Under the pieces are notes generated by a model. It saw only the letters and a program-made list of their open reading frames with translations, did not search any database and was not told the origin of the DNA. A stretch of 64,000 bases of DNA from Lepisosteus oculatus (Eukaryota; Chordata; Actinopteri; Semionotiformes; Lepisosteidae): positions 186,001-250,000 of the forward strand of contig NW_027168341.1 of assembly GCF_040954835.1 (NCBI RefSeq). Reading direction: 5' to 3'. Below are positions 6,855 through 23,100 of the stretch, in pieces. The position numbers and the translations under genes are program-made. Positions within the stretch are counted from its first letter, which is position 1. Each line of letters opens with the position of its first letter.

Positions 6855-6907
6855 ATACTTACCTGGCAGGGGAGATACCTTGATCAAGAAGGAGGTTCAC
6901 CCAGGGC
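6855..6907 (+). pseudogene. U1 snRNA 5' part (nt 1-53), unit 2, first copy
   Basis: It matches U1 from ATACTTACCTG to CACCCAGGGC and is then replaced by LINE sequence. The other part of the gene is at 11726-11850 beyond the LINE. Confidence 0.92.
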
Positions 6908-7041
6908 AGCGTAAATGGAGGCTTAAGGCACCTGCCCTCTACAATCCGGCTGGGCGCCTGCAATGGCTATGTTTTTTATGTGGCCTAGGCTGCGCGATTT
7001 GTGCTGTGGGTGCGGGCCGCTTGCAGGGGCCTGTTTAACTC

Positions 7042-7094
7042 ATACTTACCTGGCAGGGGAGATACCTTGATCAAGAAGGAGGTTCACCCAGGGC
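7042..7094 (+). pseudogene. U1 snRNA 5' part (nt 1-53), unit 2, duplicated copy
   Basis: Second copy of the U1 5' part, produced by the 187-bp duplication. It is followed directly by the LINE at 7095. Confidence 0.9.
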
Positions 7095-19861: not shown

Positions 19862-21289
19862 ATGGCAACCTTTGGATCCCGTAAGAATGCTGTACGTTTT
19901 GAGCTCTTGGATGACCTCTTCATGGATCGTATGCAGTTCAGCAGAAAAGTGTTACAGAAGGAACTTGGCTTTGAACCTCGGCACTTGGATTTCATCTTCG
20001 CTCTCCCAGGTCAGAAAGCATTTGAGGTTGTATTTGCTACCTATCCTCTGTTTGAACAATGCGTGGATGTGTTTGAGGCAAAAAGAGGCAAAGTTCCTGC
20101 ACTTGAGAAGATCAACTTGCAGCCTCTGACACAGAGAGAGAGGAAAACGGTGCATGTTGTTATGTTCTCGGAACTGGCAAAGACGGAGGACATTCACACC
20201 TGGCTTAACCAGTACTGCACCGTCCACCATGGAACTGAGGTTAGAGATGTTGATGGTATAAAAACAGGAGCAAGGAAATTCGAGGTTCGCTTGCTACCGG
20301 ACAGCGTAAATGGAGGCTTAAGGCACCTGCCCTCTACAATCCGGCTGGGCGCCTGCAATGGCTATGTGTTTTATGTGGGACAACCAAAGGTGTGTCGGCG
20401 CTGTGGTGCTGTGGGACACCTGGCATCGTCCTGCACTGTGAAATGCTGCAAGACCTGTGGCAAACAGGGACATTTAGCCTCTGACTGTTCAATGCTGCCA
20501 AAGTGCAATTTATGTGGCTCGGAAGGACACGTTTTTAAGAACTGCCCTCACGCCTACGCCAATAAACTCAAAATGAGAAAGGATGAGGCAGTGCTTGTTT
20601 CAGCCAAACCGGCCCGAAAATCCAAAGCAAACAACAAGTCAAACAAAGAACCCTTGTTGGACAAAGACTCTCAGCCTCCAGCCAGGATCAGTCCTGCTGT
20701 GGCTCCGGGGCTGGTGGAAGAGAAATCCACTACGCCCCCACAACCGCAGACTGCACCAGACAAGCACGAGGGTTTGAAAACCCCCGAGAACAGCGAGGAC
20801 CCCTCCCCCACTCCTGCTCCTCAGAACGAGGGCCAGTGTGGGGCCCCCCGGTGGAGCGGGTCCAGCGAGGATACCCAGGATTCAGCGGAGCTGCTTTTCT
20901 CAGACTCTGCAAGTGCTACAGATGCCCTCCTCTCCTCCATCCAGTCCATCACGGAGGATCTGCAGCAGCTGGTGGGTGAGGGGGAAGAGGAGACTGGTGC
21001 ATCGGCTGCACCCCTTTCCCCTCAGTGCTCCCAGGAGCTGGACTTGAGGAAAAGAAAAAATGACTCTGTTTTCTCCCCGAGCGAGGAGGAAGGAGAGCAT
21101 GGCGATGGGGACAGCTGGAACCTCTCCACCCCTCCCTCTACCCCCTTCCTTGAAATGGACTCTGTGAACGCCTTTACTGCTGCCACCCTGATGAAGGCTC
21201 ATTCAGAGGATGGCTGGCAGGAAATTGGTAAGAAGAAAAAGAAAAAGAAAAAGGTAACAGGTGAGACCGAAGAGAAATGTGTTTTGTAA
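19862..21289 (+). CDS. LINE ORF1 protein, complete (copy 2)
   Basis: 475 residues from ATG 19862. An upstream in-frame ATG at 19811 lies in the leader and I consider it less likely, because MATFGSRKN follows a short leader and begins the structured part. The N-terminal region of about 170 residues has no motif I can name. Three CCHC zinc knuckles follow at 178-191, 196-209 and 215-228. The middle is low-complexity, proline- and serine-rich, then acidic; a run of lysines lies close to the C terminus. Such ORF1 proteins bind the element RNA and help form the retrotransposition complex. The stop at 21287-21289 lies 26 bp before ORF2. Confidence 0.92.
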   Translation: MATFGSRKNAVRFELLDDLFMDRMQFSRKVLQKELGFEPRHLDFIFALPGQKAFEVVFATYPLFEQCVDVFEAKRGKVPALEKINLQPLTQRERKTVHVVMFSELAKTEDIHTWLNQYCTVHHGTEVRDVDGIKTGARKFEVRLLPDSVNGGLRHLPSTIRLGACNGYVFYVGQPKVCRRCGAVGHLASSCTVKCCKTCGKQGHLASDCSMLPKCNLCGSEGHVFKNCPHAYANKLKMRKDEAVLVSAKPARKSKANNKSNKEPLLDKDSQPPARISPAVAPGLVEEKSTTPPQPQTAPDKHEGLKTPENSEDPSPTPAPQNEGQCGAPRWSGSSEDTQDSAELLFSDSASATDALLSSIQSITEDLQQLVGEGEEETGASAAPLSPQCSQELDLRKRKNDSVFSPSEEEGEHGDGDSWNLSTPPSTPFLEMDSVNAFTAATLMKAHSEDGWQEIGKKKKKKKKVTGETEEKCVL

Positions 21290-21315
21290 AGACTGGTTCC
21301 ACTTTCTTATGTAAT

Positions 21316-23100
21316 ATGGCTCTTAACATAATTTCTCTTAACACAAGAGGTATCAATGACAGAGTTAAATGCCAGTCTGTCTTTGATTACCTCCAGCAGA
21401 GAGAGGGAGATGTGTTGATGTTGCAGGAGTGTGCTTTAGCCTATCAAGAGAGGTATAAAAGTTTTGAAGATAGGTGGGATAAAGGGCCTTCTGTTTGGTC
21501 AGGGGACAATAACAACAGAGCCTCTGGCGTGGCCATTCTTTTCAAAGGATGGGCATTCAAATTGAAAAGTATTCAGAGGGTCATAGATGGCAGGTTGCTG
21601 TGTGTGGATGTGGAATGGGGGACCGTTAACCTGCGGCTAATCAATGTGTATTGCCCTACTGACGTAGGAGGAAGGGTGGAGCTACTCAAGGCACTCTCCC
21701 CCCTATTGTTATGCAGCACAGACGTGATAGTGGGAGGGGATTTTAATTGTATCTTAGAGCACACAGACAGGCAGTCTAGCTCTCCGATAAAATTGGATTC
21801 CAGCTCACTGGCCCTGCAAAACTTAGTTCAAGACTTTAAACTCTCAGACACATATAGATGTATATATCCCACAACAGCAGGATATACATGGTCAGGGAGG
21901 AATAGCAGCTCCAGAATTGACTATTGCTTTGTCTCAGAGAGAGTGAAAGTTGTTGGGGTCACTCTTCAGCCTGTCTTCTTCTCAGATCATCAGGCTTTAG
22001 GGTGTAGAGTGGAACTCCAGGGCGGGACTGTCTTTGGCCCAGGCCTCTGGAAACTCAACACAAAGCTGCTAGAGAACGAGGGGGTAGTATCCCGCTACAA
22101 GGAGAAACTATCACAGTGGCTGTCCTTGCAGTGTCTGTACGGGTCAGTAGGAGAGTGGTGGGAGGAGGTGAAGGTGAGGACAAAGGCCTTTTTCATGGCT
22201 GAGGGAAGGAAGGCTGCTGCCAGACGGAGAGGAGTGCTAGCCAGGAAACAGAGGCAGCTGCAGCGTCTCTACACGATGCTGCACAGTGGCTTCGATGTGC
22301 TCGAGGATATCGCCCTTTTAAAAAAGGACATCCGGAGCATAGCCGAAGAAAGTAGTCGAGGAGTGCTGTTAAGAAGCAGAGTGCAGTTCTTGGAAGAAAA
22401 TGAGAAGTGTACTCGCTTCTTTTTCAGGAAAGTGGTAGGCTCCAAGACTGTCATGGAAAGTGTAGTTGATGAGGAGGGACGAGAGAGAACAGAGCCGAGT
22501 GCTATCCTCTCCTGCACCGAGGCCTTCTACTCAAGACTGTACAGCTCTACAGAGGTAAAGGATGAAGATATTCATTTTTTTACCTCAAAGCTAGAAAACG
22601 TTTTGAGTGAAGAAGATAGGGAAGTACTTGAGAGGGATTTGACAGTAGAAGAGCTGAGACAGGCTATGGAGAGCTTACAGCAGGGGAAAACTCCGGGTGC
22701 TGACGGGCTCCCTAAAGAATTTTATTGCACCTTTTGGGATCTGCTTCAGGATCCGCTACTGCTCCTATTCGAGGAAAGCTACAAGACAGAATTGCTGCCT
22801 GACTCCTTAAGAGAAGGCACTATCTCTCTCTTGTTTAAGAAAGGAGCAAAGAATGACATAAAGAACTGGAGACCCCTCAGCCTGTTAGGCGTGGACACTA
22901 AGATCCTGTCCAAAGCCCTTTTCCTGCGCCTACAAAATGTAGTGGCCTCACTGGTAGGGAAAGAACAGACTTGTGGGATAGCAGGACGCCTGATGAGCGA
23001 CAACCTGGCCTTGTTGAGGGATGTCTGTCTGTACTCAGAGGATCGCTCCCTCCCTCTGTGCATTTTAAGTGTAGACCTAGAAAAGACCTTTGACCGCCTA
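21316..23100 (+). pseudogene. LINE ORF2, 3'-truncated (copy 2)
   Basis: It is open for about 595 codons from ATG 21316: the complete AP endonuclease (N9, E38, D142, N144, SDH at 223-225) and the N-terminal part of the reverse transcriptase as far as D587 of VDLEKTFDRL. It lacks GVRQGCPLSP, YMDD and the C-terminal knuckle. The frame runs on for about ten foreign codons. It differs from copy 1 by a few amino acids, for example LQQGKTPG and SVDLEKTF. Confidence 0.92.

Follow-up and report, generated by a model that had tools for sequence, protein, structure and literature searches.

The window analysed here, i.e., the whole stretch of 64,000 nucleotides (nt) from Lepisosteus oculatus (contig NW_027168341.1, positions 186,001 to 250,000), includes a tandem array of ~2.7-kb units, each with a minus-strand gene for 5S ribosomal RNA (rRNA) and a plus-strand gene for U1 small nuclear RNA (snRNA), a small RNA needed for splicing. 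Three of the five U1 genes in this array are intact (4148..4311, in array unit 1; 14380..14543, which served as our U1 reference; and 17069..17232, all on the plus strand), and the other two are interrupted by a long interspersed nuclear element (LINE) lying in the U1 orientation. Rfam (RF00003) matched the intact genes at 4148, 14380 and 17069 as well as the interrupted gene ending at 11850, with minus-strand 5S genes in between.

LINE copy 1 (7095..11725, plus strand) is 5'-truncated: it covers element positions 510-5140, lacks the first 509 bp of the element, and is preceded by U1 nt 1-53 (7042..7094, plus strand) and followed by U1 nt 40-164 (11726..11850, plus strand), the 3' half of the interrupted gene. 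It is flanked by a 14-bp target-site duplication of U1 nt 40-53 (GGTTCACCCAGGGC), found upstream at 7081..7094 (plus strand) and again at 11726-11739 as the first 14 nt of that 3' half. Copy 2 (19794..23100, plus strand) has a complete 5' end and starts directly after U1 nt 32, with U1 nt 1-32 (19762..19793, plus strand) forming the 5' leader of full-length copies; it is broken at 23100, with 1,833 bp missing at its 3' end, and its 3' junction is absent from the window. The two copies differ at 19 of 2,802 sites (99.3% identity over 2,802 bp). Since both their 5' junctions and their 5' ends differ, they are separate insertions, and a single duplicated event is ruled out for the window. The original prediction had recognised two separate same-orientation LINE insertions in U1, 5' junctions after nt 53 and nt 32, a visible 3' junction at nt 40 and the 14-bp duplication at copy 1, all of which we confirmed; its estimate that the insertions lay within 8 bp of each other was wrong, as 21 nt separate the two 5' junctions.

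Joined head to tail into one sequence, the window copies give an element of 5,140 bp, with a 68-bp 5' untranslated region (UTR), two open reading frames (ORF1 of 475 and ORF2 of 1,152 amino acids) and a 198-bp 3' UTR without poly(A) (11528..11725 in copy 1, plus strand). No ATG precedes that of ORF1 in the leader and 5' UTR. ORF1 (19862..21289 in copy 2, plus strand) encodes ZCCHC3-like RNA-binding domains and CCHC knuckles (PF00098, PF23057, PF23058). ORF2 is open in copy 1 (8069..11527, plus strand) and cut off in copy 2 (21277..23100, plus strand), and carries both an apurinic (AP)-type endonuclease (PF03372, 5.8e-15) and a reverse transcriptase (PF00078, 9.6e-35), together with a zf-RVT domain; its best phmmer match among solved structures was the human L1 ORF2p (312 bits, vs. 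82 bits for R2). The element is a retrotransposon without long terminal repeats, i.e., a LINE, with an AP-type endonuclease. An ORF1 with CCHC motifs is typical of the Tx1 group, and is present here; the feature is not diagnostic on its own, and membership of the Tx1 group is plausible. Among the 20 long loci read, 12 had both ORFs (475 and 1,152 codons) open, and some of the 12 probably represent the same duplicated unit; in the remaining eight, one or both ORFs were shorter, missed by our script or truncated away. The family therefore looks recently active.

To evaluate target preference, we searched the assembly that contains the window (813 contigs, 1.2 Gb), using the 3' UTR of copy 1 as a query and exact patterns. 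The exact 21-nt 3' end of the element was present in 412 copies, and 317 of these (77%) continued at most 30 nt later with GGTTCACCCAG (U1 nt 40-50); reversed-pattern controls gave 0 for both counts. The 3' UTR search returned 791 candidates, 40 of which were scored (all at 100% identity), and reading all 40 3' flanks placed 26 in U1, including two (L025, L057) where the U1 target duplication is followed by another LINE copy, i.e., double insertions at a single U1 site. For the exact-3'-end set 77% is a floor, because seven further read flanks are point-changed U1 (at least seven such cases: L055, L094, L105, L110-L113). The uninterrupted U1 site occurred 443 times; counted by exact matches, ~42% of U1 sites (317/760; 317 filled vs. 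443 empty) are therefore filled, which burdens an essential gene family heavily. The 3' junction at nt 40, and not the 5' junction, is what the insertions have in common; it is the commonest 3' junction genome-wide, and within the window is visible for copy 1 only. U1 nt 39/40 is the preferred insertion site of this LINE. In the contig-ordered list of 3' ends, the first 100 entries extend to C20, and 36 of these 100 lie on the 60-Mb contig C14, 17 of them being exact U1 junctions.

These U1 insertions are also diverse. Among the first 100 listed of the 317 U1 3' junctions, 19 different 3' tails were found (a few of them maybe point variants), ranging from none through GAATC, GAAATC and GAAAAAAA up to GAAAAATCGAAATC. 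Three 5'-truncated insertions (window copy 1, L048 and L040) start at element positions 510, 2564 and 3667 after U1 nt 53, 57 and 55, respectively, and U1 resumes at nt 40 after each of them. U1 genes on contig C1 with a different downstream spacer carry insertions as well. Because the arrays differ in their spacers and 19 tails occur among the first 100 listed junctions, the insertions do not go back to one duplicated event: there are many separate insertions at one U1 position, and the element is a target-specific retrotransposon with most of its copies at that position through independent events. Thus the suggestion that this LINE targets U1 genes, and that two hits at one gene were unlikely by chance, held up across the window's own genome: the proposed 3' UTR search with a listing of flanks found most copies inside U1 (317/412 exact ends, 26/40 scored matches), chance is excluded by the same counts and their empty controls, and copying of one event by unit duplication, which the original prediction had named as an objection, fails on the tails, the several truncation points and the spacers.

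The 5' junction seen at copy 2, U1 nt 32|GCCTGTAG, occurred at 538 places in the assembly, comprising 178 with a full leader preceded by C, 272 preceded by exactly CTCGGC and 88 others. In 14 of the 20 long loci, U1 up to nt 32 runs into a full-length element, followed by U1 from nt 39/40; ten of these have U1 nt 1-32 within a U1 gene, and four have nt 4-32 with U4/U5 DNA upstream. Three others are 5'-truncated after U1 nt 55 or 57 (two of the three being the same repeated unit), two begin at element position 18 after another sequence, and one is not in U1. The LINE of L044 and L047 starts at element position 18; what precedes it resembles, by eye, another LINE's 3' end with its A-run, yet its own 3' end is in U1, and a template switch between two LINE RNAs is possible there. 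In L040/L041, ~120 bp of filler sequence (5103-5224 in L040 as oriented) separates U1 nt 55 from the truncated LINE at the 5' junction.

Among the first 100 listed leader junctions, 35 show U1 nt 1-32 with a C in front, the arrangement found in U1 genes (in all eight whose upstream DNA was read, this DNA was U1-like), seven more are U1 genes with variant bases, and two are U1 genes with a tandem leader. A further 45 (38 exact, seven variants) belong to the amplified CTCGGC class, with a leader starting at nt 4 (up to nt 9 if there are base variants), ten have other, non-U1 upstream DNA, and C43:97881 was left unread. The first 20 leader junctions read had been chosen partly for a non-U1 3' flank. 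In the ten non-U1-upstream copies the leader starts at nt 1 (L062, L065), 2 (L072), 3 (L061, L126), 4 (L063), 5 (L066), 9 (L067), 10 (L125) or 13 (L069), these positions being ambiguous by a few shared bases. U1 upstream DNA was found ahead of the leader in none of the ten (the 22 nt before nt 1 match at 3-8 of 22 positions, ungapped).

The leader is mobile with the element. At L061 (3' flank L053), which sits in a 7SL RNA gene, an 11-13 bp duplication bounds the insertion, so that the U1 piece is part of the inserted DNA. Flanking duplications were also found for L063/L029 and L067/L108 (GGTTTT(CT)) and for L072/L122 (AAGGT(T)), and no clear one for L065/L024 and L069/L115; at L062 the 3' end was not found at the expected place, which precluded a duplication check there. 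The clearest cases are two U1 genes: L124, in which U1 nt 1-43 is followed by U1 nt 5-32 (two bases shared) and the element, and L127, in which six nt separate U1 nt 1-51 from U1 nt 3-32 and the element. In both, the upstream U1 extends without a break beyond the site of insertion, and the element brings in another piece of U1. The leader would then have to be in the element RNA.

We therefore favour, with a probability of roughly 0.85, a young, two-ORF, endonuclease-bearing LINE that would integrate by target-primed reverse transcription at one U1 position, from an RNA starting at the U1 start and with pairing of its leader. The endonuclease would make a bottom-strand nick at the preferred 3' site, between U1 nt 39 and 40, and the exposed end would prime copying of the element RNA, leaving the short (GAAATC)n-like tails that vary among junctions. 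This RNA would have its 5' end at the U1 start of transcription, or close to it, and would contain U1 nt 1-32 followed by the element. When the complementary DNA (cDNA) is complete, its U1 end could pair with the matching upstream U1 DNA, a sealing step that would make U1 nt 1-32 run seamlessly into the element at the shared nt 32 junction; incomplete or unpaired cDNAs would join a second-strand cut further downstream, giving duplications of ~2-18 bp such as those observed at truncated copies. A 7-bp target deletion was rejected as the cause of the missing U1 nt 33-39, as element nt 1-7 (GCCTGTA) replace U1 AGAAGGA and leave the spacing to nt 40 unaltered. Because GCCTGTA stands in for AGAAGGA, target and inserted copy have an equal distance from GATCA to the cut.

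A leader ending at the U1 start would be most simply explained by transcription from the U1 promoter. The U1 gene has probably been taken over twice, as a landing site and as a promoter, with a U1(1-32)-LINE chimaeric RNA whose leader re-aligns the cDNA. Such an RNA would carry the sequence with which U1 pairs to 5' splice sites, and 5' integration guided by the leader would be homology-guided and keep the site usable again. If so, expression would be limited to copies lying in U1 (or next to some other suitable promoter), and this would select for targeting.

Several observations weigh against this reading or the counts behind it. Targeting leaks, since 14 of the 40 scored 3'-UTR matches lie outside U1, and specificity is not absolute. 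LINE-bearing units recur at spacings of ~7.86 kb and ~8.475 kb, and this unit duplication inflates the genome-wide counts. So do the 272 junctions sharing the single upstream sequence CTCGGC (the class of L034, L036, L043, L049, L070 and L132-L138), as the upstream DNA of the four long loci read from this class consists of U4 and U5 genes and not of a U1 gene, with U1 from nt 39/40 and a 5S unit after the element. L034 is, by sliding identity, a recombinant LINE, and LINEs may therefore have fused snRNA arrays. The lists of 100 junctions are ordered by contig and do not represent a random sample. Rearrangement also produces leader junctions with non-U1 upstream DNA, since L126 (perhaps a rearranged copy) has a non-U1 5' flank and a U1 3' flank (L055), and for L062 and L125 the 3' flank was not obtained. 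Finally, the start site and promoter use are read from DNA, and an internal promoter in U1 nt 1-32 or in the 5' UTR is compatible with the data.

In this last case, which we consider rather unlikely, a U1-specific LINE would have its own internal promoter and would keep U1 nt 1-32 as a part of its 5' UTR that aids target pairing. Internal promoters starting at the first base exist in other LINEs, the leader does move with the element, and the data do not place the promoter; against this, the outer limit of the leader coincides with the U1 transcription start in two of the ten non-U1-upstream copies and lies beyond it in none. A very improbable alternative derives the off-target leaders from repeated template switching from the LINE RNA to mature U1 RNA. 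Template switching is known for reverse transcriptases of this type, human U6/L1 chimaeras arise in this way, and L044/L047 resemble by eye a switch onto RNA of another LINE, one with an A-run; however, entry onto U1 RNA would normally be at its 3' end (nt 164), and the off-target copies share the very nt 32|GCCTGTAG junction found at 538 places (other U1 junctions were not searched for). Multiplication of one or two insertions by unit duplication and homogenisation of U1 arrays, without any site specificity, can draw on the recurrent unit spacings, the 272 junctions with one rearranged 5' flank and the recombinant L034, but is scarcely credible and, as a sole cause, refuted by the 19 tails, the three truncation points, the double insertions and the hits in U1 genes with a different spacer.

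A U1-targeting LINE was not found in the open-access literature searched, Repbase and subscription papers being beyond that search. The crocodilian SINEU and Tx1-Mar are reportedly retroposons whose 5' heads derive from U1 or U2 and which a Tx1 LINE is proposed to mobilise; these elements are said to be short and non-autonomous, whereas here the LINE is autonomous, has U1 nt 1-32 at its front and inserts in U1 as well. SLACS and CZAR insert in spliced-leader genes, in which the gene drives or co-transcribes the element, and belong to another clade with another target. Likewise, R2 inserts in the 28S rRNA genes that co-transcribe it (PMC3954772), again with a different clade and target. A 2015 paper names only Keno and Utopia (both at U2), Dada-U1 and Dada-U6 as elements targeting snRNA genes (PMC4640811). 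Keno, of the Tx1 group, is likewise a LINE that has an apurinic-type endonuclease and occupies a fixed site in an snRNA gene, that of U2 (PMC4640811), but the preferred target here is U1 nt 39/40; most copies lie at this U1 position and not at the U2 site of Keno, with no search aimed at U2 genes being made. Utopia, in U2 genes, shares a fixed 3' boundary within an snRNA gene, a variable 5' boundary and some tandem insertions (PMC4640811), and differs in its restriction-like endonuclease and U2 target. The Dada-U1 elements of zebrafish also target U1 snRNA genes, but they are transposase-encoding DNA transposons and their duplication, likely GCGAAT/GCGAAC, is in another part of U1 (PMC3706591). 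The present element would thus be a target-specific LINE whose snRNA target is new and whose U1 leader is mobile, and would extend the short list of elements that insert in snRNA genes. The mobile leader offers a natural handle on 5' end joining, the poorly understood half of LINE integration, with seamless joins, leaderless duplications and tandem leaders side by side in one genome.

Some copies are joined head-to-tail. The LINE 3' flank runs into a LINE 5' end in six of 80 read flanks, and a pattern search found the LINE 3' end joined to element position 8 at four loci (L026, L027, L028 and L109; three distinct, as L026 and L027 are alike), all on C14. These joins may be a by-product of the LINE landing in the leader of older copies, and the conserved distance from GATCA to the cut may explain all four. 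An array on C16 joins at element position 20 (L123), and L106/L107 have extra bases; these do not fit the position-8 pattern.

Rfam annotation of 59 loci (without L109, L111, L114 and L119) found, besides U1, a 7SL gene at one insertion and U5, U4, 5S and one tRNA gene (transfer RNA) near others. L066 is preceded by a stretch resembling the U2 5' end by eye, for which Rfam made no U2 call. The first base after the tail is G in 25 of 35 off-target 3' flanks, yet the tail units themselves start with G. Six off-target 3' flanks (L022, L082, L085, L099, L114, L118) share by eye a CGTCTCCACTGGTCCTTTGTTCTGAAAAGAACCTG-like stretch (shorter in L099) before diverging, which may be either a second recurrent target or a common repeat end.

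Back in the window, an exact 187-bp tandem duplication (6793..7166, plus strand; 6793-6979 = 6980-7166) crosses the 5' junction between U1 and LINE copy 1, and each of its breakpoints shows GTGG. Its unit contains U1 upstream DNA, U1 nt 1-53 and the first 72 bp of copy 1, which are therefore present twice (the first U1 piece at 6855-6907), and it reflects either a recent secondary event or an assembly error. Further downstream, 1.8 kb past the broken end of copy 2, a 95-bp unit is repeated in 8.6 tandem copies (24929-25736), and a tRNA gene cluster (26444-58130) lies beyond the 5S/U1 array and includes a U4 gene at 37597-37738.

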